DNA of 33,948 bases from Flavobacteriaceae bacterium (GTDB lineage Bacteria; Bacteroidota; Bacteroidia; Flavobacteriales; Flavobacteriaceae), in NCBI GenBank assembly GCA_009926065.1, contig RFPP01000022.1, forward strand, positions 1 through 33,948. The letters are read 5' to 3'. Shown here piece by piece: positions 153 through 33,304 of the stretch (its first letter is position 1; the number at the start of each line of letters is the position of its first letter). Both the position numbers and the translations under genes were made by a program. The notes beneath the pieces were generated by a model. The model saw only the letters and a list, made by a program, of their open reading frames with translations. It was not told the DNA's origin and did not search any database.

Positions 153-168
153 AGTTTCACGTGGAACA
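153..168 (-). other. parS-like ParB-binding site 1
   Basis: On the minus strand this reads TGTTCCACGTGAAACT, which matches the bacterial parS consensus TGTTNCACGTGAAACA at all but the last base. It lies between mnmG and the partial methyltransferase gene. Two further perfect copies at 2102-2117 and 2265-2280 make chance occurrence very unlikely. ParB binding here would load the chromosome segregation complex. Confidence 0.8.
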
Positions 169-199: not shown

Positions 200-2071
200 T
201 TAACGACCCATGTAAACTAATAATACTGATATATCGCTTGGTGAAACTCCACTAATTCTAGACGCTTGTGAAATAGTAACGGGTCTGATTTTTGAGAGCT
301 TTTGTTTTGCCTCAATCGACATTGATTTAATGTTATTGTAATCAAAATCTTCTGGAATTTTTAAGTCTTCCAGTCGCTGTAACTTATTAGCATTATTTCT
401 TTCTTTTTCAATGTATCCCGAATATTTAACTTGGATTTCTGCTTGTTCTAAAATCTCTAAGTCGATACCTTTGATTTCCACATATTCTTTTACTTTATCA
501 ATTTTCATCATGTCTTCAAGGTCAATTTGGGGGCGAGAAAACATTTTAAACATCTTGTCGGACTGATCAATTAACGCGGTTTCTTTAGCTTCTAAAATCG
601 GATTTGCTTCTGCTGGAGTAATGCTTGTTTCTTTAAAGAAAGCCACCATTTTTTCAGATTCATTTAGCTTGTATTCCATTCTTCGAAGCCGTTTTTCTGA
701 TGCTAAACCAATTTCATAAGAAAGCGGAGTCAATCTAAAGTCGGCATTATCCTGACGTAATAACGTTCTGAATTCGGCTCTTGAGGTAAACATTCTATAA
801 GGTTCCTCTGTCCCTTTTGTAATTAAATCGTCAATTAAAACACCAATATAAGCTTCGTCTCTTTTTAATATTAATGGGGCTTTTTCTTGCACTTTTAAAG
901 CGGCATTAATACCCGCCATTAATCCTTGTGAAGCAGCTTCTTCATAACCCGTTGTGCCGTTTATTTGTCCCGCAAAATAAAGTCCTTCAACCAACTTCGT
1001 TTCTAAAGTATGTTTTAATTGTGTAGGAGGAAAATAATCATATTCTATAGCATACCCAGGTCGGAAAAACTTAACTTTTTCAAAGCCTGCTACTGAGCTT
1101 AAAGCTTTAAATTGGATGTCTTCAGGTAAAGAAGTTGAAAATCCGTTTACATATACTTCTACGGTATTCCAACCTTCTGGTTCTATAAACAACTGATGTC
1201 TTTCTTTATCGGCAAAACGATTAATTTTATCTTCAATTGAGGGACAATACCTCGGGCCGAGGCTTTTAATTCTTCCATTAAACATCGGAGATCTGTCAAA
1301 ACCTTCTCTTAATATGTCGTGAACATCCAAAGAAGTATAGGTCATATAACACGATTTCTGATGAGTTAGCGGATGAGTAATATCTGAATAAGAGAATTTA
1401 TCTGGTTTTAAATCGCCTTTTTCCTCATTCATTTTAGAATAGTCCAATGATCTTCCGTCTACTCTTGGTGGGGTCCCTGTTTTCATTCTTCCGGACTCAA
1501 AACCTGCATTTACTAAATCTTCGGTTACTCCGTATGCAGCACTTTCGCCGGCTCTACCTCCTCCAAATTGTTTTTCTCCTATGTGGATTAAACCATTAAG
1601 GAACGTACCATTAGTGAGCACTACCGTTTTGGCTTTTATTTGAATTCCTAATGAGGTTTTGATTCCTTTAATTTGTCCGTTTTCGATAATTAATCCCGCA
1701 ACCATTTCTTGATAAAAGTCAAGATTTGGAGTTTGCTCCAACATTAATCTCCATTCTTCGGCAAAACGCATACGATCGCTTTGAACTCTTGGAGACCACA
1801 TGGCAGGCCCTTTCGACTTATTTAGCATTTTGAATTGGATCGCAGTTTTATCAGAAACAATTCCAGAATAACCTCCAAGCGCGTCTATTTCTCTTACAAT
1901 TTGTCCTTTTGCAATTCCTCCCATTGCAGGATTACATGACATTTGGGCAATGTTCTGCAAGCTCATGGTAACCAATAAAGTTTTGGCACCTAGATTCGCG
2001 GCAGCGGCAGCGGCTTCTGAACCGGCATGGCCTGCGCCAACAACAATAACATCGTAGGTATCTTGAAACAA
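200..2071 (-). CDS. mnmG: MnmG (GidA), tRNA uridine-5-carboxymethylaminomethyl modification enzyme
   Basis: The 623-residue product is the usual MnmG length. This FAD protein works with MnmE to place the carboxymethylaminomethyl group on wobble U34 of certain tRNAs. The N-terminal Rossmann motif VGAGHAGSEAA lies at residues 11-21. It is followed by the family signature MSCNPAMGGIAKGQIVREID near residues 44-63, the conserved YCPSIEDK segment near 277, and a C-terminal helical domain ending near SGVSPSDISVLLVY. The start codon is TTG (complement of 2069-2071): an in-frame stop lies a few codons upstream, and no in-frame ATG precedes the FAD-binding strand, so TTG is the only reasonable start. 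parS-like sites flank it on both sides. mnmG is classically found near bacterial replication origins, which agrees with the candidate oriC at 14.9-15.7 kb. Confidence 0.97.
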   Translation of the reverse strand: MFQDTYDVIVVGAGHAGSEAAAAAANLGAKTLLVTMSLQNIAQMSCNPAMGGIAKGQIVREIDALGGYSGIVSDKTAIQFKMLNKSKGPAMWSPRVQSDRMRFAEEWRLMLEQTPNLDFYQEMVAGLIIENGQIKGIKTSLGIQIKAKTVVLTNGTFLNGLIHIGEKQFGGGRAGESAAYGVTEDLVNAGFESGRMKTGTPPRVDGRSLDYSKMNEEKGDLKPDKFSYSDITHPLTHQKSCYMTYTSLDVHDILREGFDRSPMFNGRIKSLGPRYCPSIEDKINRFADKERHQLFIEPEGWNTVEVYVNGFSTSLPEDIQFKALSSVAGFEKVKFFRPGYAIEYDYFPPTQLKHTLETKLVEGLYFAGQINGTTGYEEAASQGLMAGINAALKVQEKAPLILKRDEAYIGVLIDDLITKGTEEPYRMFTSRAEFRTLLRQDNADFRLTPLSYEIGLASEKRLRRMEYKLNESEKMVAFFKETSITPAEANPILEAKETALIDQSDKMFKMFSRPQIDLEDMMKIDKVKEYVEIKGIDLEILEQAEIQVKYSGYIEKERNNANKLQRLEDLKIPEDFDYNNIKSMSIEAKQKLSKIRPVTISQASRISGVSPSDISVLLVYMGR

Positions 2072-2101: not shown

Positions 2102-2117
2102 TGTTTCACGTGAAACA
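2102..2117 (+). other. parS ParB-binding site 2 (perfect palindrome)
   Basis: TGTTTCACGTGAAACA is a perfect 16-bp palindrome and an exact match to the parS consensus TGTTNCACGTGAAACA. It lies 30 bp upstream of the mnmG start codon, in the mnmG-ybeY gap, so ParB bound here could also affect mnmG transcription (inference). Confidence 0.92.
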
Positions 2118-2260: not shown

Positions 2261-2680
2261 TTATTGTTCCACGTGAAACATTTTCATTTTTTCTTCCTCT
2301 TTAGATCTCATAACAAGTTCGTCGGATTTGGTTTTGTCTCTATATCCGCTAAAATGCAAAATTCCATGAACCAAAACGCGTTGGATTTCTTCCTGGAAAG
2401 TAACATTGAATTCGGATGCGTTCTCTTTTACCCTTTCAACAGACACAAAAATATCTCCATTTAGCTCATTTCCAACGGAATAGTCGAAACTTATTATGTC
2501 TGTAAGCGTGTCATGATCTAAATACTGCTGGTTTAGTTTCAATAAATAGTCGTCGTCACAAAAAATGTAATTAATTTCGCCTTCTTTTTTGTTTTCAGAA
2601 AGAATTACTGCTGAGAGCCATTGGGTAAAATGAGACTCGTTGTGCAATTCAAAATCGGTTTCGTAATTAAAACTAATCAT
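2261..2680 (-). CDS. ybeY: YbeY, endoribonuclease for rRNA maturation
   Basis: The 139-residue product matches the YbeY/UPF0054 family, metal-dependent RNases needed for 16S rRNA 3'-end maturation and ribosome quality control. The metal-site segment is HGILHFSGYRDK, with His105 and His109. The third position, His in E. coli, is Asp115 here; as I recall, this substitution is usual in Bacteroidota. The LDHDTLTDIISFDY stretch near 54-67 is also typical. The ATG start overlaps the end of the upstream DUF4175-like gene by 8 bp, so the two are probably co-translated. The final codons (FHVEQ, residues 135-139) lie inside a perfect parS site, so the C-terminal tail is set by the ParB motif rather than by protein function. 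Confidence 0.95.
   Translation of the reverse strand: MISFNYETDFELHNESHFTQWLSAVILSENKKEGEINYIFCDDDYLLKLNQQYLDHDTLTDIISFDYSVGNELNGDIFVSVERVKENASEFNVTFQEEIQRVLVHGILHFSGYRDKTKSDELVMRSKEEEKMKMFHVEQ
2265..2280 (+). other. parS ParB-binding site 3, embedded in the ybeY 3' end
   Basis: TGTTCCACGTGAAACA matches the parS consensus exactly. It lies entirely within the ybeY reading frame; its minus-strand copy encodes the last residues M/F-H-V-E-Q, just before the TAA stop at 2261-2263. It is 163 bp from site 2, close enough for ParB spreading between sites. Confidence 0.92.
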
Positions 2681-12739: not shown

Positions 12740-14920
12740 TTATTCTTTTTCTCTTATAAAATGAAAATCTAATTGTTTTTTAACTAAATCGGCGTTTTTT
12801 ACTTTTACATAAATTTCATCTCCTAATTGCAATAAATTATGTGTTGTAGCGCCAACTAAAGCATATTGTTTTTCATCAAAAGTATAATAATCATCTTTAA
12901 TTTCTCTGATTCTTACCATTCCCTCACATTTGTTTTCTATAATTTCTACGAAAATTCCCCACTCGGTAACTCCTGAAATTACTCCTAAAAATTCTTGATC
13001 TTTATGGTCTTGCATATAGCGAACTTGCATGTATTTTATACTGTCGCGCTCGGCATGTGTTGCTAGATTTTCCATATTTGATGAGTGTAAACATTTAATT
13101 TCATAAGTTTCTTCATCTGCTGATTTTCCACCATCTAAATAATATTGTAGTAATCGATGTACCATAACATCTGGATAACGACGAATGGGTGATGTAAAAT
13201 GAGAATAGTAATCAAATGCTAATCCGTAATGTCCAATATTATCAGTTGAATATTTAGCTTTACTCATACTTCGAATCGCTAAAGTATCTATTAAATTCTG
13301 CTCTTTTTGACCTTGAACGTCGTTTAATAATTTATTTAAAGACATTGAAATATCGCCTTTTGATTTAAAATTAATACTGTAACCAAATTTTGAAATCACA
13401 TTTTGAAGCGCTATTAATTTATCATCATTAGGTTCATCGTGAATTCTATAAATAAAAGTTTTCTTTTGTTTTCCTATAAATTCTGCTACTTTTTTATTTG
13501 CTAAAAGCATGAATTCTTCAATCAAATGATTTGCATCTTTTGAAGTTTTAAAGAAAACCCCTATAGGTTCATGATTGGTATTTAAATTGAATTTCACTTC
13601 TACTTTATCAAATGAAATAGCACCTTGAGCCATTCTATTTTTTCTTAAAATTTTAGCTAATTCATCTAATTTAATAATAGCATTTACAATCTCATCTGAA
13701 ACTTTATAAGCAGCTCCAGTTATTGATGTTTCTATTGGAATAATATTATTGTTAGTTTCAATAATATATTGTGCTTCCTCGTAGGCAAATCGTTGATTAG
13801 AATAAATTACCGTTCTTCCAAACCAATTATTTATTACTTGCGCTTTTTCGTTTATTTCAAAAATAGCGGAGAAGGTATATTTTTCTTCATTTGGTCGTAA
13901 GGAACAAGCAAAATTAGATAATACTTCCGGTAACATTGGAACTACACGATCTACTAAATATATAGAAGTGGCGCGTTGGTAAGCTTCATCATCTAATATA
14001 GTACCTTCTTGTAAATAGTAGGAAACATCGGCAATATGAATTCCAACTTCGTAATTTCCATTTTCTAATTTTTTAAAAGATAATGCATCATCAAAATCTT
14101 TAGCGTCTTTTGGATCAATAGTAAAAGTTAAAGTATCACGAAAATCTCTCCTTTTTTTTATTTCACTTTCTTTTATTGAGGTGTCTATTTTTTTAGCGTA
14201 TAATTCTACTTCTAATGGAAATTCTGCAGGTAAGCCATATTCAGCTAAAATAGCGTGAATTTCAGTGTTATGTTCTCCTTGTTTTCCTAAAATTTTAATT
14301 ACTTTTCCAAAAGGACTATCAGCTCTTGTAGGCCAATCTTCTATCTGAACTAAAACTACATCACCGTTTTCAGCATCTCCTAATTTATCTTTTGAAATAA
14401 AAATATCAGTATACATTTTAGGATTTGCAGTCGATACAAATGCAAAGTTTTTCTGAATATCAATTACCCCAACAAAATCAGTTTTCTTTCTTTCTATTAT
14501 TTCAATTACTTCACCTTCTACACGTTTTCCTTTTCTACGATTGTAAACATATACTTTTACTTTATCACCATCTAAAGCATGATTTAAATTATTGGTTGGA
14601 ATAAATACATCATCTTTAAAATCTGGAGAAATAAAGTAGGCTGTTTTTCTTCCAGTCATATCAATTACACCTTCTGAATAATCTTTACTACTTTCAATAA
14701 TTAAATATTTTCCAGGTTCTGATTCTGTAATTTGTTTTTGAGCTGCTAAAATCTTTAAATCTTTAATTATTTGATTTCTACTTTGTGTATCATCTAATTC
14801 TAATTTAGCTGCTATTTGTTTGTAGTTGAAGGATTTATTACTATTTTGATTTAGTATTTTTAATATTTTTTTTGTAAAATCAAGCTTATTTTTATCTGAT
14901 TTTCTTAATCTTTTACTCAT
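12740..14920 (-). CDS. rnr: Ribonuclease R (RNB-family 3'-5' exoribonuclease)
   Basis: This 726-residue processive exoribonuclease degrades structured RNA. The domain order is typical: a basic N-terminal winged-helix region (about 10-75), two cold-shock-type RNA-binding domains (about 80-215), the RNB catalytic domain, and a C-terminal S1 domain (about 640-722). The catalytic aspartates lie in IDPKDAKDFDDAL at 268-280. The downstream HYGLAFDYYSHFTSPIRRYPD signature is intact. It lies immediately left of the large AT-rich gap proposed as oriC and is transcribed away from it. Codon use is strongly A/T-ending. Confidence 0.97.
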   Translation of the reverse strand: MSKRLRKSDKNKLDFTKKILKILNQNSNKSFNYKQIAAKLELDDTQSRNQIIKDLKILAAQKQITESEPGKYLIIESSKDYSEGVIDMTGRKTAYFISPDFKDDVFIPTNNLNHALDGDKVKVYVYNRRKGKRVEGEVIEIIERKKTDFVGVIDIQKNFAFVSTANPKMYTDIFISKDKLGDAENGDVVLVQIEDWPTRADSPFGKVIKILGKQGEHNTEIHAILAEYGLPAEFPLEVELYAKKIDTSIKESEIKKRRDFRDTLTFTIDPKDAKDFDDALSFKKLENGNYEVGIHIADVSYYLQEGTILDDEAYQRATSIYLVDRVVPMLPEVLSNFACSLRPNEEKYTFSAIFEINEKAQVINNWFGRTVIYSNQRFAYEEAQYIIETNNNIIPIETSITGAAYKVSDEIVNAIIKLDELAKILRKNRMAQGAISFDKVEVKFNLNTNHEPIGVFFKTSKDANHLIEEFMLLANKKVAEFIGKQKKTFIYRIHDEPNDDKLIALQNVISKFGYSINFKSKGDISMSLNKLLNDVQGQKEQNLIDTLAIRSMSKAKYSTDNIGHYGLAFDYYSHFTSPIRRYPDVMVHRLLQYYLDGGKSADEETYEIKCLHSSNMENLATHAERDSIKYMQVRYMQDHKDQEFLGVISGVTEWGIFVEIIENKCEGMVRIREIKDDYYTFDEKQYALVGATTHNLLQLGDEIYVKVKNADLVKKQLDFHFIREKE

Positions 14921-15167
14921 AGTTCTTTCTTATAAGGTTGAAATTTACAAAATACTTTACAGTTCATTGTAGATAAATATTATTATTAAATAAATTAAAA
15001 TAATTTAATAAGATAAATTTCAAAAATCTAAATTAAGATGATATTTTAAAAAAAATATAAAATTTAAGATTAATGTTATCAACAAGTACTAAAAACAATA
15101 AAAATAAAATTTAATTTAAAATTATTTTATAATGGTTATTATTGCTTGTTAATAGTTATTATAAGTT

Positions 15168-15187
15168 TATTTCATATATATGAAATA
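15168..15187. repeat. Perfect 20-bp palindrome in the AT-rich gap
   Basis: TATTTCATAT is followed directly by its reverse complement ATATGAAATA. It lies between the two clusters of DnaA-box-like words. It could be a protein-binding site or a cruciform-prone sequence; no known operator is recognised. Confidence 0.6.
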
Positions 15188-15644
15188 TTAAGTTATAATT
15201 ATTTACCACAAGTTATAAACAACCTAATTTTATATAAAACAGTTTGAAATTAAGAATTTTTAATTTTAATTAACAACGGTTAATAATTAAAAACAACACT
15301 ATTTTGTAGATAATTCAAATTTCAAAATTTGTTAATAAACAGAAAATAATTTGTAATAACTTTTATAAAAATTATTCAAACTTTTATTGTTTTATTCAAA
15401 GTAATTTTTGCTTATAAATTTTTATCAAACCTCAAAAAAAACTTATTATTTTATATATAAAGTTATAAACATTTAATGTTAAATTAATATAAACTGATTA
15501 TCAATAAGTTAAGAATTTATATTAACATTATAAAAAATTAACATATTTATTATATAAAATAAATAGATAAAATTTAATAAGTATTGATTATTAGGTGTTT
15601 ATAATTTATTTAATTTATTACCTCAATTACCAGTTAAGATTTGG

Positions 15645-15652
15645 TAAATTTG
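15645..15652 (+). promoter_or_regulatory. Bacteroidota-type -7 element for rpiB
   Basis: TAAATTTG is an exact TAnnTTTG match 25 bp before the rpiB ATG, at the right edge of the AT-rich gap. Confidence 0.4.
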
Positions 15653-15677
15653 TAAAAAATAAACAATAATTTTAGTT

Positions 15678-16106
15678 ATGAAAATTTCTATTGGAAATGA
15701 CCACGCAGGCCCAGAATATAAAATAGCAATAGTTGAAATGCTAAAAGCAAATGGATATGAAGTTATAAATTATGGTACTGATTCTAAAGATAGTGTGGAT
15801 TATCCTGATTTTGCTCACCCTGTAGCATTAGATGTAGAGAAAAAAGTTTCTGATTTTGGAATTATCATTTGTGGTAGCGGAAATGGAATAGCAATGACAG
15901 CAAATAAACACCAAGGAATAAGAGCTGCATTGTGTTGGAATAAAGAGATTGCTGTATTAGCGCGCCAACATAATGATGCTAATATTATAAGTATTCCAGC
16001 TCGATTTACTTCAATACCTCAAGTATTAGAAATGGTTCAAACTTTTCTTAATACCGACTTTGAAGGAGGAAGACACCAAAATAGAATAAACAAAATAGGT
16101 TGTTAA
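15678..16106 (+). CDS. rpiB: Ribose-5-phosphate isomerase B
   Basis: This 142-residue member of the RpiB/LacAB family interconverts ribose 5-phosphate and ribulose 5-phosphate in the pentose phosphate pathway. Visible motifs are GNDHAGPEYK (residues 6-15), the GTDSKDSVDYPDFAH phosphate/ring-opening segment, the catalytic-cysteine loop IICGSGNGIAMTANK, and RAALCW. The length is typical. It is the first gene right of the candidate oriC. It converges with tatA, whose stop codon lies only 15 bp away. Confidence 0.95.
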   Translation: MKISIGNDHAGPEYKIAIVEMLKANGYEVINYGTDSKDSVDYPDFAHPVALDVEKKVSDFGIIICGSGNGIAMTANKHQGIRAALCWNKEIAVLARQHNDANIISIPARFTSIPQVLEMVQTFLNTDFEGGRHQNRINKIGC

Positions 16107-16121: not shown

Positions 16122-16292
16122 CTATTTTTCTTCTTCTTTTTTTTCTGTAGAAGAATTATCTTTTGATGCATTTTTGAATTCTTTAATTCCAGTTCCTAAT
16201 CCTTTCATTAATTCTGGAATTTTTTTACCTCCAAACATTAACAAAATTACAGCAACGATTAAAATTATTTCAGTTGGTCCTAATCTTCCCAT
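16122..16292 (-). CDS. tatA: TatA/E-type twin-arginine translocase subunit
   Basis: A 56-residue frame runs on the minus strand from the ATG at 16292 to the TAG at 16122. It encodes [20 protein letters not shown], then [20 protein letters not shown] and a charged Lys/Glu/Ser tail. This is the classic TatA layout: a short N-terminal membrane helix, an FGxxKxPxL hinge, an amphipathic helix and an acidic/basic tail. TatA oligomers form the pore that passes folded twin-arginine proteins across the inner membrane. No tatC is nearby. An exact TAnnTTTG element (TACCTTTG) lies 45 bp upstream. Confidence 0.93.
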
Positions 16293-22116: not shown

Positions 22117-22974
22117 ATGAAAGGAATTATTTTAGCCGGAGGATCAGGAACTAGATTACACCCCCTTACACTTGCTGTTAGCAAACAATTGATGCCAATT
22201 TATGATAAACCGATGATATATTACCCTCTATCATCGTTAATCTGGTCTGGAATAAGAGAAATATTAATCATTTCTACACCACACGATTTACCATTATTTA
22301 GACAATTATTAGGTGACGGCACCCGATTAGGATGTCGTTTTGAATATGCAGTTCAAGAGCATCCAAATGGTTTAGCAGAAGCATTTATTATTGGAAAAGA
22401 ATTTATAGGAAATGACAAAGTCGCCTTAGTTTTAGGAGATAATATTTTTTACGGAACGGGATTATCAGATTTATTACAGTCAAATAATAATCCAGAGGGC
22501 GGTATAATTTATGCGTATCACGTTAATGATCCGGAAAGATATGGAGTCGTAGATTTTGATGCCCATGGAAATGTACTTTCTATTGAAGAAAAACCATTAA
22601 ATCCAAAGTCAAACTTTGCTGTTCCTGGAATTTATTTTTATGATAATGATGTGGTAGAAATCGCCTCCAACATTAAACCTAGCCATCGAGGAGAAATTGA
22701 AATTACTGACGTAAATAAGGAATACCTTCGAAGAGGAAAATTAAAAGTTAGTATCTTAGATAGAGGAACAGCCTGGTTTGACACAGGAACTTTTAAATCT
22801 TTAATGCAAGCCTCACAATTTGTTCAAGTAATTGAAGAAAGACAAGGTTTAAAAATCGGTTCAATTGAAGAAGCGGCCTACAAAATGGGCTTCATCAATG
22901 CAAAACAATTAAAAGAATTAGCGCAGCCATTACTGAAAAGCGGTTACGGAAAACATTTATTAGAAATTATATAA
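22117..22974 (+). CDS. rfbA: Glucose-1-phosphate thymidylyltransferase (RmlA)
   Basis: The 285-residue enzyme makes dTDP-glucose from dTTP and glucose 1-phosphate, the first step of dTDP-rhamnose synthesis. The nucleotide-binding signature [17 protein letters not shown] (residues 2-18) is intact, followed by [17 protein letters not shown], the metal-binding LGDNIFYG segment and [20 protein letters not shown]. Length is normal. It is followed without any gap by rfbC, and then rfbD overlaps, so the three are surely cotranscribed. Confidence 0.97.
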
Positions 22975-23526
22975 ATGAATTTTATACCTACAAAATTAGA
23001 AGGATGTTTTGTTATTGAACCTAAAATATTCAATGACGAAAGAGGATATTTCTTAGAAAGTTATAATGAAAACACTTTTCAAAACGGCATCGATCAGCAA
23101 GTTCATTTTGTTCAAGACAATCAATCGTTTTCTAAAAAAGGGGTTTTACGCGGGCTACATTATCAAACAGGAGAACACGCACAGGCTAAGCTAGTTCGTG
23201 TTTTGCAAGGAGAAGTTTTGGACGTAGCAGTAGACATAAGGCCTAATTCAAAAACCTATGGCGAACATGTTTCGGTTCTGCTTTCAGCAGAAAAACAAAA
23301 TCAATTTTTTATTCCTAGAGGCTTTGCACACGGATTTTTAGTGCTTAGCCAAACGGCGACTTTCTTCTACAAATGTGATAATTTTTACAATAAAGAAAGT
23401 GAAGGCGGAATAATTTATAATGATAATTCGTTAAAAATTGATTGGCAGATTCCTTTAAACGAACTCATTATATCAGAAAAAGACACCACATTACCCACAA
23501 TTGAAAATGCCAAAAAAGTATGGTAG
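22975..23526 (+). CDS. rfbC: dTDP-4-dehydrorhamnose 3,5-epimerase (RmlC)
   Basis: The 183-residue cupin enzyme epimerises C3 and C5 of dTDP-4-keto-6-deoxyglucose. Diagnostic stretches are FVQDNQSFSKKGVLRGLHYQ, with the catalytic His in RGLHYQ, and LDVAVDIRPNSKTYG. FIPRGFAHGFLVLS and FFYKCDNFY carry the conserved Tyr. The start directly abuts rfbA. The last 7 bp overlap the start of rfbD. Confidence 0.97.
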   Translation: MNFIPTKLEGCFVIEPKIFNDERGYFLESYNENTFQNGIDQQVHFVQDNQSFSKKGVLRGLHYQTGEHAQAKLVRVLQGEVLDVAVDIRPNSKTYGEHVSVLLSAEKQNQFFIPRGFAHGFLVLSQTATFFYKCDNFYNKESEGGIIYNDNSLKIDWQIPLNELIISEKDTTLPTIENAKKVW

Positions 23527-24377
23527 TCTTAGTTACAGGAGCCAGCGGTCAATTGGGTCAGGCAATACAATTTATTGCAAAAAACCATTCCGAAATTAAA
23601 TTTGTTTTTTGTAGTTCATCAGATTTAGATATTACAAATAAGGAAAATTGTCAAACTGTTTTTCAAAACACAAAACCTGATTTTTGTATTAATACTGCAG
23701 CTTATACCGCAGTAGATAAAGCAGAATCGGAACGGAATAAAGCCGAATTAATTAACGTATTGGGCTCAAAAAACATCGCTGAGGCTTGTAAAGATTTCGA
23801 TGTTACATTAATTCATATTTCAACCGATTTTGTTTTTGATGGATCAAATGACAAGCCGTATACCGAATCCCAAATTACAAATCCAAAAGGGATTTATGGA
23901 CAAACAAAATTAGAAGGCGAAAAAGCAATTCAACAAGTATTTTCAAAATATTATATTATTAGAACTTCTTGGGTTTATTCTCAATTCGGTAATAATTTTA
24001 TGAAAACAATGCTCCGATTGTCATCTGAAAGAACAGTTTTAAGCGTTGTAAATGATCAAATTGGAACCCCAACAAACGCAGTTGATTTAGCGGAAACCCT
24101 AGTTCAGATTATTTTATTCCACAACCAACAACCAACAATCAACAACTACGGAATCTATAATTTTAGCAATGAAGGCGAATGTTCGTGGTATGATTTTGCA
24201 AAAAAAATATTTGAAATCAACAATGTTAACATTGATTTATCAGCCATTCCAACAGAACAATTTCCCACTCCAGCTCAACGACCAAAGTATAGCGTTTTAG
24301 ATAAAAGCAAGATAAAAACTACTTTTGGAATTTCAATTAAAACTTGGGAAGATAGTTTAAAATCAATTAAAATATGA
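23520..24377 (+). CDS. rfbD: dTDP-4-dehydrorhamnose reductase (RmlD)
   Basis: The 285-residue SDR enzyme makes dTDP-L-rhamnose with NAD(P)H. The N-terminal VTGASGQLGQAI binds the cofactor. INTAAYTAVDKAES, STDFVFDGSNDKPYTE and the YGQTK catalytic pair are in the expected order. The start overlaps rfbC by 7 bp and the end overlaps epimerase 1 by 4 bp (ATGA). The pathway's dehydratase, RfbB, is not encoded in the window, so it must be elsewhere in the genome or left unlinked. Confidence 0.96.
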   Translation: MVVLVTGASGQLGQAIQFIAKNHSEIKFVFCSSSDLDITNKENCQTVFQNTKPDFCINTAAYTAVDKAESERNKAELINVLGSKNIAEACKDFDVTLIHISTDFVFDGSNDKPYTESQITNPKGIYGQTKLEGEKAIQQVFSKYYIIRTSWVYSQFGNNFMKTMLRLSSERTVLSVVNDQIGTPTNAVDLAETLVQIILFHNQQPTINNYGIYNFSNEGECSWYDFAKKIFEINNVNIDLSAIPTEQFPTPAQRPKYSVLDKSKIKTTFGISIKTWEDSLKSIKI

Positions 24378-25435
24378 AAATTGTAGTAACCGGAGGAGCA
24401 GGATTTGTAGGCTCAACCCTTTGTTTGCAACTAAAAAGCAACTATCCGTCCTACGATATTGTAGCTTTTGACAACCTTAAAAGAAGAGGTTCAGAATTAA
24501 ATATAACGGATTTTCAAAAAAAAGGAATTCTATTTTTTCATGGAGATATTCGAAACAATGAAGATCTTTCAGCGCTTGGAAGTTTTGATGTTTTAATTGA
24601 GGCATCTGCAGAACCATCGGTAACTGCAGGACTTGATTCTGACCCAACGTATGTGATAAACAACAATCTTTACGGATCAATTAACTGTTTTAATGCATGT
24701 TTAAAGAACAATGCAAAACTAATTTTTCTTTCTACAAGCCGAGTTTATCCAATTGAAACAATAGAAAAAGCGAATTATATTGAAGAATCCACCCGATTTT
24801 CATTTGATGTAAATCAAAGCCAAATAGGTATTTCTAACAAAGGTATTTCAGAAAAATTAAGTCTTGAAGGAGCTAGATCTTTTTACGGAACAACCAAACT
24901 TTCTTCAGAAATGTTTATTCAAGAATATGCTGCTTTTTATGGATTGAAAGCGGCAATTACAAGGTTTGGAGTTATTGCAGGACCTCGACAAATGGGGAAA
25001 ACCGATCAAGGCGTTGTTACGCTTTGGATGGCAAAACACTATTGGAATCAATCTTTAAAATACATTGGTTACGGCGGCGAAGGAAAGCAAGTTCGTGACC
25101 TTCTTCACGTAGACGATGTGGTAAAATTAATTGATTTACAAATTCACCAAATAGAAAAATTTGAAGGTAAAATTTATAATGTAGGTGGCGGAATTGAAAA
25201 TAGCGCGTCCTTATTAGAAATGACTTCGATTTGTGAAAAAATAACAGGAAATAAAATCAAAATTGGTTCAGAACCGGAAACGAGAACTGCCGATTTAAGA
25301 ATTTATATCACCGATAATAGCCTTATTGAAAAAGAAATTGGCTGGAAACCAACAAAAAATGTAGAGCAAATTTTCACCGATATTTTCCATTGGATAAAAG
25401 AAAATGAAAATCACTTGGAACCCATTTTGAAGTAA
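24374..25435 (+). CDS. NAD-dependent epimerase/dehydratase 1 (CDP-paratose 2-epimerase-like)
   Basis: This 353-residue extended SDR is probably a nucleotide-sugar epimerase. The cofactor loop is TGGAGFVGS (residues 6-14), the active-site Ser/Thr strand is FLSTSRVYP (118-126), and the catalytic pair is Tyr171 and Lys175 in FYGTTK. It is not RfbB, because the AAESHVDRSI-type signature is replaced by IEASAEPSVTAG. The overall pattern (long insertion before YGTTK, then GYGGEGKQVRDLLHVDDVV) resembles the CDP-paratose/tyvelose 2-epimerase group. The substrate is unknown; no other CDP-dideoxyhexose genes are present. It overlaps rfbD by 4 bp and is followed after 1 bp by a polytopic membrane protein. 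Confidence 0.88.
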   Translation: MKIVVTGGAGFVGSTLCLQLKSNYPSYDIVAFDNLKRRGSELNITDFQKKGILFFHGDIRNNEDLSALGSFDVLIEASAEPSVTAGLDSDPTYVINNNLYGSINCFNACLKNNAKLIFLSTSRVYPIETIEKANYIEESTRFSFDVNQSQIGISNKGISEKLSLEGARSFYGTTKLSSEMFIQEYAAFYGLKAAITRFGVIAGPRQMGKTDQGVVTLWMAKHYWNQSLKYIGYGGEGKQVRDLLHVDDVVKLIDLQIHQIEKFEGKIYNVGGGIENSASLLEMTSICEKITGNKIKIGSEPETRTADLRIYITDNSLIEKEIGWKPTKNVEQIFTDIFHWIKENENHLEPILK

Positions 25436-25436
25436 G

Positions 25437-27344
25437 ATGAAAGAAACGCTATTAAAATTTTGGAATGTTAAATCCGCCTATTTAGTGTTTTCACTTTTAG
25501 CCGCTTTTTTAGTTTTTCCTTCCTTTTTTGAATATAATGTTACGCCATTGGCTTCAGACAAACACCTTTGGAACTCCTTAGATCCTTCATGGGCACTTAC
25601 TTTAAATTACATTAATAACCATAACTTTATTTGGGGGAAGGAATTTGCATTTACCTACGGGCCACTTTCTTATTTATCTACAAGAATTGCATGGGGTTGT
25701 AATAAATATATTTTCTTTTTATACGATCTATTTTGTTATTTAAACTACTTTTTACTTTTTTATTATAGCCTTTGTAATAACAAAAACAAGATTTTAACAT
25801 TCATCAGTATTATTATAATTGCAACTGTAGTTCCAACCTATTTAGGTGGTGCAAATGCCTTAGTGCTCTTTTTATTTTTAGTGTTTTGGTTGGTTCGAAA
25901 TATAGAAGAAGTTAAGAAAATCAATTATATTTTTCAGATAATTTTATTGTGTTTACTTTTCTTCATAAAATTTAATACAGGACTAATTTCGATTATTTTA
26001 TACACAATTGTTTTTGGATATTTAATGATTAAAGGAGTTGAAAATAGGGTAAAAACAGCCCTGATTTATCCAATTCCGTTTGTATTAATTTTGTTGCTTT
26101 CCTATGTTTTTAATGTAGAAATTATAAGTTATGTAATTTCAGGAATCGAAGTTGTTTCGGGCTATAACGAGATAATGTTTAATAACAATTCCGCTTTTAT
26201 TTTCGATTTATCTTCGCAATTAATTTTATTTTTATCGGTATTGATTTTGGTTATAAATCTAATTACCCAAAGAAATAAAGAGCAGTTTTTAAAGAACATT
26301 ACCTACTTAGCCATTTTCTCAATATCAATTTTTATCTTGTATAAGCAAGCATTTGTAAGAGCCGATAACGGACATATAATGGAGTTTTTTAAATATGTTG
26401 TTTTGTTAATTTTATGCACGAAAATATTTTTTGATTACAAATGGTTTAATCCAAAATCGATTATTATTACAATAGCGGTATTGATATCCTTTTATATTTG
26501 TTTTAATAATTATGGTTCAACTTTATTTGATTATAAAGAGAAATCCAATAAAACAGTCTATTTTAATCAGTTTTCTTCATTTTCAGAAACATCTGGCTTT
26601 CAGTTGCATCCTAACAATAATCAATTACCAGACACTATAAAACAAAAAATAGGAAGCAATACGGTAGACGTTTTCCCCTGGGACATTTACATGCTACTTG
26701 AAAATAAACTAAATTATTTGCCAAGGCCAATTATCCAGTCTTATTGTGTTTACACCAAATACCTAGAAGAACAGAATTTTAATTTTTATAATAGCGAAAA
26801 AGCGCCCAAATTTGTATTGTATGATTATGTTTCACTAGATTACAGATATCCATTGTTTGACGAAGCTAAAGTAAATTTGGTTTTATTTAAAAATTATAAA
26901 GTGGCAGAAACGTTTACTTTTAAAGAAAGACAGATCATTTTATTAGAAAGAAAAGAAAATGCAAAGCCAGTAAAACTTATATTTAATAAAGAATATGCCA
27001 TTCTTTCAGGAGCGCCATTAATTCCAAAAAATGACATTTTCTATGAAGTTGAATTTTTCCCAACATTAAAAGGGAAAGCGGTTTCGATTATCAATCATGC
27101 GCCAGAAATTAAAGTTAATATTAAGAAAAATAACAACGGATCAAATGAATACAGAACATCAAATTCGCTATTAAAATCTGGTATTTTTTCTGAATATCAA
27201 TTCAATTCAACCCAGGATTATTTGAATTATTATAACAACATTTTTAAAGAAAAAAATAAGATAAAATACTATTCTTTTTTTCCTTTGCACGAAGGATATT
27301 ATAATGAGAAAGTAAAAATCACAGAATATAAAATAACACAATAA
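25437..27344 (+). CDS. Polytopic membrane protein of unknown function, possible GT-C-type glycosyltransferase
   Basis: The 635-residue protein has about ten hydrophobic helices in its first 370 residues and a soluble, probably periplasmic C-terminal part of about 260 residues. After the first helix comes an acidic loop with DPSW (residues 49-52) and then [13 protein letters not shown] (68-80). An acidic residue in the first periplasmic loop is typical of GT-C glycosyltransferases, which use polyprenyl-phosphate sugars. I do not recognise a named family. The gene is packed between two epimerase genes with 1-bp gaps, and a polyprenyl-phosphate-type GT2 is encoded downstream. Both fit a role in transferring a lipid-linked sugar. 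The function is inference. Confidence 0.75.
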
Positions 27345-27345
27345 A

Positions 27346-28410
27346 ATGAATATTTGTATCATCACAGGTTCATCGGGATTAATAGGAAGCGAGTCGGTTT
27401 CTTTTTTCGCGCCAAAATTTGATAAAATCATTGGAATCGATAATAACATGCGCCAAGTCTTTTTTGGAGCAGACGCATCGACGGAATGGAATACTAAAAA
27501 ACTAACCGAATCCATCCAAAATTTTGAACACCACCACGCTGATATTCGAAACATCGAAGAATTAGAAAAAATATTCTCAAAATACGGCGCCGAAATCAAA
27601 TTAGTGATTCACACCGCTGCTCAACCAAGCCATGATTGGGCAGCAAATGAACCAATTACAGATTTTACCGTCAATGCAAACGGGACATTAAATTTGCTGG
27701 AAGCAACAAGGTTACATTGCCCTAAAGCAACATTTATTTTTACATCGACTAATAAAGTTTATGGCGATACTCCAAATTATTTACCCTTAATAGAAAAGGA
27801 AAAAAGATGGGAAATTGACGAAAGTCATCCCTATTTCGTAAATGGAATCGATGAAAAAATGAGTATCGATCAAACGAAACATTCTTTATTTGGTGCTTCA
27901 AAAGTGGCGGCCGATGTTTTGGTTCAAGAATATGGAAAGTACTTTGGGATGAATACGGGAATTTTCCGAGGCGGCTGTTTAACTGGGCCAAATCATTCAG
28001 GAACTAAGCTTCACGGGTTTTTATCCTATTTAATGAAATGCGCCATTACAGGCGATAAATATACCGTTTTTGGCTACCAAGGAAAACAAGTTCGCGACAA
28101 CATTCACAGTTGGGATTTGGTAAATATGTTTTGGCATTTTTATCAAAATCCGCGACAAGGAGAAGTTTACAATGCCGGCGGAGGAAGACATTCCAATTGT
28201 TCAATGGCCGAGGCTATCGAAATGTGTGAGGCTATAACCGGAAAACCTATGAATTACGAATATTCTGAAGCCAACCGAATAGGAGATCACATTTGGTGGA
28301 TTACCGATGTTTCTAAATTTAAAGCTCATTACCCAGAGTGGAATTGGAAATACAATATCAATGATATTTTAATCCAAATCTATGAGAATACCATAAAAAG
28401 ACAAGAATAA
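27346..28410 (+). CDS. NAD-dependent epimerase/dehydratase 2 (CDP-paratose 2-epimerase-like, Phe at the catalytic Tyr site)
   Basis: The 354-residue extended SDR has the cofactor loop TGSSGLIGS (residues 7-15) and [15 protein letters not shown] (89-103); the AQPSHDWA block is a hallmark of the CDP-paratose/tyvelose 2-epimerase group. The Ser/Thr strand is [10 protein letters not shown] (131-140). The YxxxK position reads LFGASK, with Phe182 in place of the usual Tyr and Lys186 kept. It may therefore use a different acid/base or act only on an already oxidised substrate. It is similar in size and motif order to epimerase 1, from which it is separated by the membrane protein gene. It abuts the FkbM gene with no gap. 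Confidence 0.88.
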
Positions 28411-29136
28411 ATGAAGTTAAGAACGAAATTAATTCAAAGTCTGATTCATATAAACGAAGCGATTTTCTTTTATCCGAAACTAAAAAAGTTTTATAAAGAA
28501 AATTTGAAAAACGCCTCAGTTTCAATTCTTGATATAGGCGCTAACAAAGGGCAATCTATCGATTTTTTTCTAGGAATAAATACAAATGCTAAGATTACGG
28601 CATTTGAACCAAACAAAAAATTATTTCAATTATTAGAAGCAAAATACAAGAACAAAGGTAATATCATTTTGCATAATTTGGGCGTTAGCAATACCAATGG
28701 AGAATTGGAGTTCAACGAAAACATTTTAGATGAAACATCTACTTTTGAATCTTTAAATTTAGATTCGAAGTATCTTCAAAAAAAGGCAAAAGTACTTGGC
28801 GTTACTAAAGAATCTATAATTGTAGATAAATATAAAGTAGCGGTAGTTACATTATCAGAATTTTTAAAATCGAATGAAAGTAGTTATTTTGATGTTTTAA
28901 AAATTGATGTTGAAGGACATGAATTACCAGTTTTAGAAGGGTTGTTTATAAATGGAAATCAAATTAAAATTCGATTAATTCAATTGGAAAGTCACAACGA
29001 TGATATGTATTTAAGTAATAGTAAACACGAAGAAATCGATCAATTATTGAATAAAAATGGGTATTTTGAAATTACTAAAATCAAACATGGATTTGGGGAT
29101 TTTGCAGAAATAATATACGAGAATAAAGACAAATGA
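28411..29136 (+). CDS. FkbM-family methyltransferase
   Basis: The 241-residue SAM-dependent methyltransferase has motif I as ILDIGANKGQSIDFF (near 38-52), followed by ITAFEPN (motif II). The FkbM signature FDVLKIDVEGHELPVLEGL lies near 169-187. Members O-methylate sugars or polyketides. In this cluster a sugar hydroxyl of the surface glycan is the likely target. It starts directly at the epimerase 2 stop and overlaps the next GT2 gene by 4 bp. Confidence 0.9.
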   Translation: MKLRTKLIQSLIHINEAIFFYPKLKKFYKENLKNASVSILDIGANKGQSIDFFLGINTNAKITAFEPNKKLFQLLEAKYKNKGNIILHNLGVSNTNGELEFNENILDETSTFESLNLDSKYLQKKAKVLGVTKESIIVDKYKVAVVTLSEFLKSNESSYFDVLKIDVEGHELPVLEGLFINGNQIKIRLIQLESHNDDMYLSNSKHEEIDQLLNKNGYFEITKIKHGFGDFAEIIYENKDK

Positions 29137-29867
29137 AACTAAGTATTGTTATTCCAGCATATAACGAAGAAGAGTCTATTACTGAAACAATAGATCAAAT
29201 TGAAGAAGCTTTTTCACAAGTTGCAATCGATCATGAAATACTTGTTGTAAATGATAATTCAAAAGACAATACCGCGCAAGTTTTGGAGGGATTATCCAAA
29301 AAATATTCAGTTGTAAAGTATGTAACCAATTTAGGTCCAAATGGTTTTGGGTACGCAGTTCGTTACGGATTAGAAAGATATTCTGGTGATTGTGTGGCGG
29401 TTATGATGGCCGATTTATCTGACTCTCCGTTCGATTTGATCCGTTATTATACCACAATGTTGGAAGGAAATTACGATTGTGTTTTTGGCAGCCGATTTAT
29501 GAAAGGCGGAAAAGTGGTAGATTATCCATTTGTAAAAAAAGTGATAAATAGAATTGCCAATTTAATCATTAGAGTGGTAATGAGAATTAAATATAACGAC
29601 ACTACTAATGCGTTTAAATTGTACAAACGAGAGGTAATAGAAGGAGTAAAGCCTATCTTATCGCCACATTTTAATTTAACCATCGAATTGCCTTTAAAAG
29701 CAATAATTAGAGGATATTCTTATGCGGTTGTGCCGAATTCATGGACTAATAGAAAGTACGGCGTTTCCAAATTAAAAATCAAAGAAATGGGTAGCCGTTA
29801 TTTCTTTATTTTGGTTTATTGTTTTGTAGAAAAGTATTTTTCAAGAGGTGATTTTACCAAAAAATAA
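29133..29867 (+). CDS. Family 2 glycosyltransferase, dolichyl/polyprenyl-phosphate sugar synthase type
   Basis: The 244-residue GT2 begins LSIVIPAYNEEESITETI. It has ILVVNDNSKDNT, NLGPNGFGYAVRYGL, an acidic metal site MMADLSDSP (the usual DAD is MAD here), and GSRFMKGG, close to the DPM1/polyprenyl-phosphate glycosyltransferase pattern. No C-terminal GtrA or membrane domain is seen. These enzymes move a sugar from a nucleotide donor to polyprenyl phosphate on the cytoplasmic side, making donors for GT-C enzymes. This fits the membrane protein two genes upstream. It is the last gene of the tightly packed block; a 61-bp gap follows. Confidence 0.9.
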   Translation: MKLSIVIPAYNEEESITETIDQIEEAFSQVAIDHEILVVNDNSKDNTAQVLEGLSKKYSVVKYVTNLGPNGFGYAVRYGLERYSGDCVAVMMADLSDSPFDLIRYYTTMLEGNYDCVFGSRFMKGGKVVDYPFVKKVINRIANLIIRVVMRIKYNDTTNAFKLYKREVIEGVKPILSPHFNLTIELPLKAIIRGYSYAVVPNSWTNRKYGVSKLKIKEMGSRYFFILVYCFVEKYFSRGDFTKK

Positions 29868-29904
29868 AATGATAATAAATTAACACTTAACTAAAAATAA
29901 TAAT

Positions 29905-29912
29905 TATTTTTG
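29905..29912 (+). promoter_or_regulatory. Bacteroidota-type -7 element for the lipoprotein gene
   Basis: TATTTTTG matches TAnnTTTG and ends 16 bp before the ATG at 29929. Together with the terminator at 30480-30510 it makes the lipoprotein a separate transcription unit inside the cluster. Confidence 0.4.
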
Positions 29913-29928
29913 TAAAAAAAAGAAGAAA

Positions 29929-30465
29929 ATGAGAACAAAAGTTATAATAGCTGTTGTATTATTTAGCACCCTATCAATAAGTTGTAAAAACGAAAAATCA
30001 GTTGACCAACTTCCGGTTGTTGAGGAAAAAGTTGCGGAAAGCAAGGTTAATGTAACCGTTGATATGGTTGTACCGGTTGATGATTCGTTTCAATTATTTT
30101 ACACCGAAGACAACACACTTAATTTTAGCGAAGAAAAATGTGTTAGAGTAAATGTTCAAGGTAAAGAAAAAAGCCAAAAAATTGTATTTGAATTACCTGA
30201 CGACGTTGCTTTCACTTACATGCGTTTTGATGTTGGGGAAAATAAACAACAAAAGGAAATGAAAATCGATAATTTTACTATTAAATATTACGACAGAAAA
30301 TTTGAAGCAAAAGGTAATTTATTTTTCCAATATTTTTCACCTAACAATCAACTTAAACTGGATCTTCAAAAATCGACTTTTGTTGTAGAAGAAAAAGAAA
30401 CTCACGACCCAATTTTTTATCCTTTAGAACCTTTAGGTGTAGAGTTAAACAAGTTAATCAAGTAA
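29929..30465 (+). CDS. Hypothetical lipoprotein
   Basis: The 178-residue product starts with a lipoprotein signal, MRTKVIIAVVLFSTLSISC, with lipobox LSIS-C and the modified Cys at residue 19. The mature part begins KNEKSVDQ, is rich in charged residues and looks like a single beta-sandwich domain. No known family is recognised. The segments FSEEKCVRVNVQGKEKSQKI and VAFTYMRFDVGENKQQKE suggest beta strands with alternating polar residues. It has its own promoter element and a strong terminator, so it may be expressed apart from the glycan genes around it. A periplasmic or outer-membrane location is inferred. Confidence 0.8.
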   Translation: MRTKVIIAVVLFSTLSISCKNEKSVDQLPVVEEKVAESKVNVTVDMVVPVDDSFQLFYTEDNTLNFSEEKCVRVNVQGKEKSQKIVFELPDDVAFTYMRFDVGENKQQKEMKIDNFTIKYYDRKFEAKGNLFFQYFSPNNQLKLDLQKSTFVVEEKETHDPIFYPLEPLGVELNKLIK

Positions 30466-30479
30466 TTATAAAATAAAGA

Positions 30480-30510
30480 AAAGTTATCTAAAAATAAGGT
30501 AACTTTTTTT
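30480..30510 (+). terminator. Rho-independent terminator after the lipoprotein gene
   Basis: AAAGTTATC pairs with GGTAACTTT over 9 bp (one T-G pair) around a 9-nt loop and runs into a T-tract. It separates the first block of polysaccharide genes and the lipoprotein from the methyltransferase gene that starts 17 bp later. Confidence 0.8.
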
Positions 30511-30527
30511 ATTTAGTTTTCTTAAAT

Positions 30528-31187
30528 ATGAACTATAACGAAAAATCTCCAGATTATTTTTCTAATATTCGAAAAGACCTTATAAATTTAATTGACGCGA
30601 ATGCAAAAGATTTAAAAATCTTAGAAGTAGGGGCTGCTTATGGGGAAACTTTATATTATTTAAAACAAAACGGAATTGCTTGTGAAGCAGTAGGAGTTGA
30701 TATTTTTGAAGACGAAAAAAACAAACAAAATTACAAACCATTGGACCGATTTATTTTTGGAGACATTGAAAAAATGGAACTCCCAGAATACAATCAACAC
30801 TTCGATTTAATATTACTTCCAGACGTTTTAGAGCACCTTTTTGAACCTAAAAGAGTTCTAGAAACTCTGAAAAAATATTTAAAAGAAGACGGAAAAATAA
30901 TTATTAGCATGCCTAATATCCGTTATTATTCTGCGTTATATAAAATAGTTTTTAAAGGCGATTTTAAATACGAAGAAAGCGGAATTTTTGATTACACCCA
31001 CGTTCGTTTTTATTGCCGAAAAAACATTCAAGAGTTACTCGAAACTTCAGGGTATAAAGTTTTAAAACAAGAAAGTTCAATTGTAAACTATCAAGGAAAA
31101 TCAATATTCAAGCTGATAAATTTGATTACTTTTGGAATATTAGAAGAATTTTTTAGTACCCAATATTTTTTTGTAGTTGAAAAATAA
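30528..31187 (+). CDS. Class I SAM-dependent methyltransferase
   Basis: The 219-residue protein shows motif I ILEVGAAYGETLYYL (near 31-45), an acidic strand end GVDIFEDEK, and motif IV FDLILLPDVLEHLFEP (near 88-103). The segment DGKIIISMPNIRYYSALYKI comes next. This is the Methyltransf_23-like pattern common in O-antigen loci, where members modify sugars or lipid-linked intermediates; the acceptor is unknown. It lies 28 bp before the flippase gene. No clear TAnnTTTG element was seen between the preceding terminator and the ATG. Confidence 0.88.
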   Translation: MNYNEKSPDYFSNIRKDLINLIDANAKDLKILEVGAAYGETLYYLKQNGIACEAVGVDIFEDEKNKQNYKPLDRFIFGDIEKMELPEYNQHFDLILLPDVLEHLFEPKRVLETLKKYLKEDGKIIISMPNIRYYSALYKIVFKGDFKYEESGIFDYTHVRFYCRKNIQELLETSGYKVLKQESSIVNYQGKSIFKLINLITFGILEEFFSTQYFFVVEK

Positions 31188-31215
31188 AAGAATTATTTAA
31201 AGTAAATACTATAAA

Positions 31216-32490
31216 ATGATTCAACTAAATAGTAGTTTTAAAGAGTTAATTTCATCATCGGGTCTAAATTTTATTTTTAGAATCTTCGGACTAGGAACTT
31301 CATTTCTAACCACGGTTTTAATTACTCGTTTTTTTGGTGTTGGAACTTTTGGCGACTATTCTTTAGTGTTTGCGCTGTCGCAAATAATTGCATTATTATT
31401 CACTTTAGGGATACCAAATACCTTAATAAAAATTATAGGTAACAATGATTTCACTTTTTCACAAGCTAAAAAGCTATTGATAAAAGGGTTAAAAGGATCT
31501 TTGGTTTTCTCGATAATTCCAATTTTATTTTTCTATTTTCGTTCGGAATATTTATCAGACATCGTTTTTCACAACCTACAATTAGTCAATTATTTTTTTA
31601 TTGTATCCATTTCAATTCCACTGTTTATTGTTCACGAAATTTTCCTTTATTTTTTAATTGCAACCAAAAATTTCAATAAGTACAACTTATTTATGTTTGT
31701 AATTCCGAACCTATTATTACTACTTTTCTTGTTTCTGTTTTACACACTAGACAAACAAAATTACTTCAGCTTTATTGCTTTTTCTTTAGCAATTTTAATT
31801 ACAGTTTTGTTAGAAGCATTTACAATTTTCGAATTAAATCCCAAAAAAGAAACTATTTCAATTTCTACGTTATCGCTTATTAAATCGGCTTCGCCACTTC
31901 TATTTAGCGGGTTGTTCATGTATTTGTTAAACTACACCAATGTAATTTTGTTAGGGATAATGTCTAATAATACGCAAGTTGGAATTTATAATATCGCCTA
32001 TAAAATAGGAAGCGTTGGGTTTTTAGGGGTAGTTTCTGTAAGCACTATAATAACACCTAAAATTGCCGAACTTTATGGTAAAGGCGATTTTGATCAATTA
32101 AAAAAGCTCACACAAAATTCAACACGACTAATTGCTGTTTTTTCATTACCAATAGTACTTTGTTTGATTTTTTTTAATGAATTTATTTTGTCTTTTTGGG
32201 GCCCAGAAGCCACTTCTGGCGGAACCACATTAATCATAGTTTCAATTGGTGTGCTTTTTAGCGCTATGGCTGGAAATGTAGATCAAATTTTAAACATGAC
32301 AGAGAATCAAAATATTTTTAGAAATATTACCATTTTTAGTTTTTTCGTAAACCTAATTTTGAGTTATCTGCTAATTCCAAAATACAACATTGAAGGAGCT
32401 GCAATCGCAAGTTTGATTACCAATATTATAATTAATGTATTGTGTTTGTATTTTATTAAAAAGAAACTAGGGTTTTATACGTTATTTTAA
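31216..32490 (+). CDS. Wzx-type polysaccharide flippase
   Basis: This 424-residue integral membrane protein has about 12 predicted helices and belongs to the MATE-like polysaccharide transporter superfamily. The N-terminal segment SGLNFIFRIFGLGTSFLTTVLITRFFGVGTFGDYSL, described by its key residues RxxG and FGxxxFGxYS, is typical. The late segment with NQNIFRNITIF and the YNIEGAAIASLIT block also fits. It should move the lipid-linked oligosaccharide unit to the periplasmic face. The gene is followed after 1 bp by a glycosyltransferase. The symbol wzx is not assigned because these proteins share little sequence identity. Confidence 0.87.
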   Translation: MIQLNSSFKELISSSGLNFIFRIFGLGTSFLTTVLITRFFGVGTFGDYSLVFALSQIIALLFTLGIPNTLIKIIGNNDFTFSQAKKLLIKGLKGSLVFSIIPILFFYFRSEYLSDIVFHNLQLVNYFFIVSISIPLFIVHEIFLYFLIATKNFNKYNLFMFVIPNLLLLLFLFLFYTLDKQNYFSFIAFSLAILITVLLEAFTIFELNPKKETISISTLSLIKSASPLLFSGLFMYLLNYTNVILLGIMSNNTQVGIYNIAYKIGSVGFLGVVSVSTIITPKIAELYGKGDFDQLKKLTQNSTRLIAVFSLPIVLCLIFFNEFILSFWGPEATSGGTTLIIVSIGVLFSAMAGNVDQILNMTENQNIFRNITIFSFFVNLILSYLLIPKYNIEGAAIASLITNIIINVLCLYFIKKKLGFYTLF

Positions 32491-32491
32491 A

Positions 32492-33304
32492 ATGAAAATA
32501 GAATTATCAGTTATTATTGTCAACTACAATGGCGTTCAATATCTTAAAGAATGCTTGGATTCGTTGTATAAAAAGTTAAGCGACATTGCTTTTGAGATCA
32601 TTGTATTGGACAATAATTCTTCTGACGATAGTTGCAATTTTCTGAAAACTAATTATCCCGATGTTAAATTAATTGAATCTAAAATCAACCATGGTTTTGG
32701 AAAAGGAAATAATGAAGCCGTTAAAGAAGCTCAAGGTTTTTTTTTACTATTAATTAATAACGACACCGTTGTTTTAGATCCTATTTCACCCGCTTTAGAA
32801 ATATTAAAATTCGACAATTCTATTGGAGTAATTGGAATAAATATGCTGAACGGGAATAGGGAATATCTTCCCGCAGCTGGGAATTTCCCAAATTTTAATA
32901 ATATGTTTCAAATGAAGAAATTACTTCAAATTGGAACTGAATTTAAAACAGGAAAATTTACAAATACTCAATACGAAGTTGATTGGCTTGGAGGCTCTTT
33001 TTTATTACTTAGGAAGGAGACATATGAACTGATTAAAGGCTTCGACGAAGATTATTTCTTGTATGTTGAAGATGTTGATTTTTCCAAAAAAATAGCAAAT
33101 TTAGGCCTAAAGAGAATTTTCTTACCAAACTACAGTTATATCCATTTTGTAGGTTTTACCAAAGCTAAAAACCTGACGCTAATTAAAGGCTATGAAATTT
33201 ATATTTCAAAACATTTTAAAGGATTTGACAAATTAGTAATTACGGCTGCACTCAAAATTAATAAATTAGTGAAAACTTTTAAAAAAGGTTTAAAACTAGA
33301 TTAA
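32492..33304 (+). CDS. Family 2 glycosyltransferase, rhamnosyltransferase-like
   Basis: The 270-residue GT2 begins LSVIIVNYNGVQYLKECLDSL. It contains IIVLDNNSSDDS, NHGFGKGNNEA, the metal-binding LLINNDTVVLD, WLGGSFLLLRKETYELI and the catalytic-region block GFDEDYFLYVEDVDFSKKI. This resembles the WbbL/rhamnosyltransferase subgroup. With rfbA, rfbC and rfbD nearby, dTDP-rhamnose is a plausible donor, though not proven. It starts 1 bp after the flippase gene. Confidence 0.9.
   Translation: MKIELSVIIVNYNGVQYLKECLDSLYKKLSDIAFEIIVLDNNSSDDSCNFLKTNYPDVKLIESKINHGFGKGNNEAVKEAQGFFLLLINNDTVVLDPISPALEILKFDNSIGVIGINMLNGNREYLPAAGNFPNFNNMFQMKKLLQIGTEFKTGKFTNTQYEVDWLGGSFLLLRKETYELIKGFDEDYFLYVEDVDFSKKIANLGLKRIFLPNYSYIHFVGFTKAKNLTLIKGYEIYISKHFKGFDKLVITAALKINKLVKTFKKGLKLD

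Follow-up and report, generated by a model that had tools for sequence, protein, structure and literature searches.

The bacterial replication origin, oriC, is a known kind of object, and that of Escherichia coli consists of A+T-rich DNA with clustered DnaA boxes. A position of oriC beside dnaA is common but not required, and parS sites near oriC are usual, not universal. The gap between rnr and rpiB described here resembles E. coli oriC, which occupies the mnmG-mioC gap, in being intergenic, in lying away from dnaA (by annotation) and in having mnmG in the region. It differs in its bordering genes, in its box, which is TTATCAACA and not TTATCCACA, in the presence of parS nearby and in a G+C content of about 13%. 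In the Bacteroidetes, oriC commonly lies far from dnaA, and one was predicted from skew and DnaA boxes in Prevotella intermedia OMA14, according to the accessible part of PMC4755523. No genus-wide address is given for such predicted origins in that part of the paper, whereas the origin proposed here occupies one gap common to Flavobacterium. The rnr-rpiB address was not found in the titles and opening abstract lines of the papers listed on Flavobacterium and Bacteroidetes origins, and DoriC may already list the gap.

The window, which is the whole stretch of 33,948 bp analyzed, covers positions 1-33948 of contig C15 in a draft genome of 2.04 Mb and 72 contigs. The genus was taken to be Flavobacterium because the named relatives of its Rnr (identity up to 84%) nearly all belong there. 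We consider the rnr-rpiB gap very likely to be oriC, the predicted single chromosomal origin of this Flavobacterium, because it carries a box cluster, because many of its boxes keep fixed places in relatives, because the skew minimum falls in the gap of single-contig relatives, and because parS lies 13-19 kb away. That replication starts in this gap had been proposed in a preliminary description of the DNA; the skew minimum, the box cluster and the conservation of the gap all support the proposal at the level of sequence comparison. Predicted features are collected in Table 1.

Table 1. Features of the window, with position, strand and basis of assignment
Feature	Position	Strand	Basis
Degenerate parS-like site AGTTTCACGTGGAACA	153..168		Pattern search; 2 mismatches
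mnmG	200..2071	-	TIGR00136, 843 bits; lies between the two good parS sites and the degenerate one
parS site TGTTTCACGTGAAACA	2102..2117		Pattern search; perfect
parS site TGTTCCACGTGAAACA	2265..2280		Pattern search; one mismatch
rnr, ribonuclease R, left border of gap	12740..14920	-	TIGR02063, 744 bits (cut-off 598)
Predicted oriC, gene-free rnr-rpiB gap	14921..15677		13.5% G+C; cumulative G-C minimum of the window at 15442; divergent gap in 73/80 of the best-matching relatives' loci
Predicted DnaA box TTATCTACA	14968..14976	-	Exact word; not conserved in the wider set of relatives
Predicted DnaA box TTATCAACA, best conserved site of gap	15076..15084	+	Exact word; consensus TTGTCAACA in 70 relatives, nearly invariant except for the third base
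Candidate unwinding element, conserved triplets with central A directly 3' of best box	15085..15110	+	Inferred from column frequencies in 71 sequences including the window
Predicted DnaA box CTATTAACA, in conserved block	15147..15155	-	Position-matrix match; relatives' plus-strand consensus TGTTAATAT
Predicted DnaA box TTATAAACA	15213..15221	+	Relatives' consensus TTATCAACA
Predicted DnaA box TTATCTACA	15305..15313	-	Exact word; relatives' alignment
Predicted DnaA box TTATTAACA	15330..15338	-	Relatives' plus-strand consensus TGTTGATAA
Predicted DnaA box TTATAAACA	15463..15471	+	Relatives' consensus TTATTAACA
Predicted DnaA box TTATCAATA, weaker	15498..15506	+	Box scan
Predicted DnaA box TTATAAACA, weaker	15596..15604	-	Box scan
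rpiB, ribose-5-phosphate isomerase B, right border of gap	15678..16106	+	TIGR01120, 148 bits (cut-off 139)
TatA-like ORF	16122..16292	-	Named by reading, without a profile

The gap measures 757 bp and extends exactly from the start codon of rnr to that of rpiB. Its extreme A+T content and lack of genes, both pointed out beforehand, are borne out by a G+C content of 13.5%, against 25-38% in those 1-kb steps of the window that are clear of the gap, and by a longest open stretch of 57 codons. The described switch of gene direction also holds: ORFs to the left sum to about 10.6 kb on the minus strand against 2.9 kb on the plus strand, and on the right the TatA-like ORF is on the minus strand. Promoter and terminator scans were uninformative (16 against 14.1 expected and 0 against 0.1 expected, respectively). 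A 20-bp palindrome reported for the gap is present at 15168-15187, but we rejected it as a functional element, as 58 of 1000 shuffles contain one as long and all four of the closest gaps examined lack it. Separately, 15097-15271 resembles its own reverse complement (71%), centred near the palindrome, which may be a chance effect of low complexity.

Sites within one mismatch of TTATCAACA occur eight times in the gap against a shuffle mean of 0.82, and none of 2000 dinucleotide shuffles reaches eight. The narrower pattern TTATC[AT]ACA (TTATCWACA) occurs three times against a mean of 0.05, again with no shuffle among 2000 reaching that number. These three sites are TTATCAACA once and TTATCTACA twice, the words named in the preliminary description, which had read them against the E. 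coli box; sites within one mismatch of TTATCCACA likewise number three, against 0.18 in shuffles (p 0.0025). The sites it named are real; the box to be used is TTATCAACA, and these three belong to a set of about eight to nine. Several boxes of the window appear worn towards A and T, reading TTATAAACA where relatives show TTATCAACA or TTATTAACA. Over the whole genome TTATCWACA occurs at 121 places against 106 for the backwards pattern, which is not a clear excess, and it is therefore the clustering that counts. Among the 100 of these 121 places that were listed, the only three lying within 800 bp are those of the gap; the other 21 might still include a second cluster elsewhere in the genome. 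A position matrix for the boxes broadened with each round, from 337 to 987 sites, and was used as support only.

The divergent rnr-rpiB gap is kept, together with its box cluster, in 73 of 80 relatives' loci (the best 80 of 593 confirmed Rnr matches), as expected from the preliminary description. Five of the other seven have less than 1.6 kb of contig beyond rnr, and two gave no rpiB match within 10 kb. Among ten additional stretches, two lacked both genes and one ended at rnr, none of which gave a gap. When all 9-mers of 74 gaps (73 relatives and the window) were compared with 30 rounds of shuffling, with no motif given, TTATCAACA ranked first by excess, with 83 occurrences against 2.8 expected and a presence in 50 gaps. 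In the same gaps TTATCCACA occurred just 3 times against 0.87 expected, and it was rejected as the box of Flavobacterium. Sites within one mismatch of TTATCAACA exceed the gap's own shuffles in 72 of 73 relatives (means 6.5 and 1.1), counts that ignore common descent. An alignment of 71 sequences of 600-1400 bases (the window and 70 relatives), out of 84 gaps, revealed conserved blocks holding boxes at 15072-15110, 15123-15171, 15207-15225, 15264-15287, 15303-15317, 15325-15335, 15350-15378, 15428-15505 and 15519-15542. Ten relatives have gaps of 1.8-3.1 kb instead of about 1 kb, corresponding to extra DNA in or beside the predicted origin.

As the genome itself is a draft of 72 contigs, skew was read in single-contig relatives, around rnr over 40 kb in ten genomes and over joined stretches of 160 kb in three (G012, G182 and G138). 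A skew minimum close to the gap had been anticipated; in addition to that of the window, the cumulative G-C minimum was placed inside the gap for 12 of the 13 single-contig Flavobacterium; in the remaining genome it falls 12 bp past the gap, and all 13 turn from minus to plus there. Over 160 kb the minimum falls 408 bp into a gap of 1076 bp in G012, 319 bp into one of 1025 bp in G182 and 891 bp into one of 1159 bp in G138. Each of the ten further genomes is minus on the left and plus on the right, with the 40-kb minimum in the gap in nine, although a local minimum in the window or in the relatives' 40-kb stretches partly reflects gene direction. Of the 20-kb stretches sampled in G182 (2.99 Mb), all 20 fit one origin at the gap: the nine on one side are minus and the eleven on the other side are plus, and the skew turns back somewhere between 0.62 and 0.85 Mb. 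In four of the plus-skew stretches the plus strand carries no more than half of the long-ORF length, so the skew of this genome is not explained by gene direction alone. The skew of G012 fits in the vicinity of the gap, with mixed signs past 2.1 Mb; in G138 (6.10 Mb) there is a switch at the gap and a mixed pattern in the other stretches. In the shorter loci of relatives the minimum was in the gap in only 37 of 62, these being the loci among the 73 with enough flank for the count.

The preliminary description counted mnmG and parS sites as typically origin-proximal, and parS was sought by its consensus motif. Exact TGTTYCACGTGRAACA occurs at 28 places in 14 genomes (this one and 13 single-contig Flavobacterium), and all 28 lie 12,655-19,409 bp from the start of rnr, on its 3' side; the backwards control occurs nowhere in the same genomes. 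When one mismatch was allowed in 30 single-contig genomes from other genera of the Flavobacteriaceae, parS was found in 29, each with at least one site within 60 kb of rnr. Altogether 64 of their 67 sites lie within that distance, 62 of them on the rnr 3' side, while the backwards control gave 6 places. The arrangement is like that of ParB-parS segregation systems, in which the motif clusters near the origin, and differs within them in that nearly all parS sites lie to one side of the predicted origin, near mnmG in the window. Many Flavobacteriaceae genomes have two parS sites about 1.9 kb apart near rnr, a spacing close to the size of the window's mnmG gene. One single-contig genome of the family, G625, has no parS within one mismatch and a reversed local skew at rnr; a rearrangement of the origin or a loss of ParB-parS is possible there.

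A position beside dnaA, as in many bacteria, would reduce the gap to a mere divergent promoter region. Some Flavobacterium records do start at dnaA (base 25 or 37 in 8 of 25 genomes), and in G138 the dnaA flanks are minus and then plus, with a local minimum at the boundary. This local turn is the exception, however, as 9 of 10 single-contig relatives have no turn from minus to plus across the 20 kb on either side of dnaA, and in G182 dnaA sits within the plus arm. The gene is canonical and of full length (475 aa; TIGR00362, 500 bits) and lies in this genome on another contig (C72:9110), where its 4.4-kb locus has one TTATCWACA, inside the gene itself. In all ten relatives the kilobase upstream of dnaA contains 1-2 boxes of a six-word set and no cluster. 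In G012, G138 and G182 dnaA lies about 0.8-1.2 Mb from the gap, and the exact parS sites of these genomes are near rnr and not dnaA. In agreement with the preliminary description, the predicted oriC does not adjoin dnaA; an origin at dnaA is highly improbable.

A true origin close to the gap, for example at mnmG about 13 kb away, would make the box cluster a site that titrates DnaA or is regulated by it. The parS sites of the window do surround mnmG, and the accessible part of PMC12843772 names mnmG as the Ori-Finder-predicted origin of a Flavobacteriaceae strain of another genus. Given, on the other side, that 12 of 13 single-contig genomes have their skew minimum in the gap and that the densest 1-kb box cluster of 40 kb starts within the gap in 10 of 10, we regard this arrangement as very improbable. 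Conservation for the sake of an overlooked small gene or RNA would suit a gap of considerable length for so compact a genome (2 Mb), gaps of 2-3 kb in some relatives, and conserved blocks without a recognised box (e.g. 14927-14955 and 15399-15418). Many of the conserved blocks hold boxes, though, the gap has no Rfam match at gathering score, and with its short open stretches a hidden gene or RNA was rejected as hardly credible.

With the gap as oriC, the cluster of TTATCAACA-type boxes would be the binding place of DnaA, which is encoded on another contig, and the extremely A+T-rich DNA would be unwound by it, possibly within the conserved A-centred triplets that follow the 15076 box on its 3' side. 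Two forks would then assemble and leave the gap in opposite directions, and ParB would capture the origin region at parS near mnmG and move the copied origins apart. The order of best box and A-centred triplets recalls the basal unwinding system (BUS) of Bacillus subtilis, which is made up of DnaA boxes and DnaA-trios, and the available part of PMC8287927 describes a conserved middle adenine in the latter. The match is partial: by a raw count, seven of eight consensus triplets 3' of 15076-15084 are A-centred, in a region that is itself A-rich, and the usual 3'-GAT-5' triplet was not seen.

In ten genomes outside the genus, nine from the same family and one from a different family within the order, rpiB lies within 4 kb of rnr (turned round in G319); by a raw count, the stretch between the two genes contains one or more box words in every case. 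A minus-to-plus skew at 20 kb is present in only 2 of these 10, and G625 is reversed. Exact parS occurs in five of 11 genomes from the wider class, nine of which are in a single contig and one of which (G413) belongs to the same family. Only G319, a member of the same order, has it near rnr, and there it lies 4-6 kb away on the rnr 5' side, opposite to Flavobacterium; the other four have it about 70 kb to 1.8 Mb from rnr; by the parS test the arrangement is therefore not phylum-wide. The rnr-rpiB address is well supported for Flavobacterium, and for the Flavobacteriaceae as a family the support comes from parS and gene order.

The recognition helix of DnaA reads GDRDHATV in this genome and in G002 (two intact proteins) against GGRDHTTV in E. 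coli, and the residue by which DHATV differs from DHTTV is one that we take to touch the box. The change could go with the box shift from TTATCCACA to TTATCAACA. A module shared by the Flavobacteriaceae, in which mnmG/parS, rnr, oriC and rpiB are combined with DHATV for DHTTV and the shifted box as a co-evolved initiator and origin, is a tentative and rather doubtful extension.

If the gap is indeed oriC, the genus Flavobacterium has one predictable, testable origin address. Growth rate could then be read from origin-to-terminus sequencing depth in Flavobacterium genomes and metagenome bins, chromosome sequences could be made to start from the real origin and not from dnaA, and the gap would be a short fragment clonable as an oriC plasmid. 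Should the box be TTATCAACA, origin finders strict on TTATCCACA would miss most sites here. Elsewhere in the window, starting about 6.4 kb to the right of the gap, 22117-33304 carries polysaccharide-type genes (sugar-nucleotide synthesis, glycosyltransferases, flippase-like), as judged from ORF translations only.
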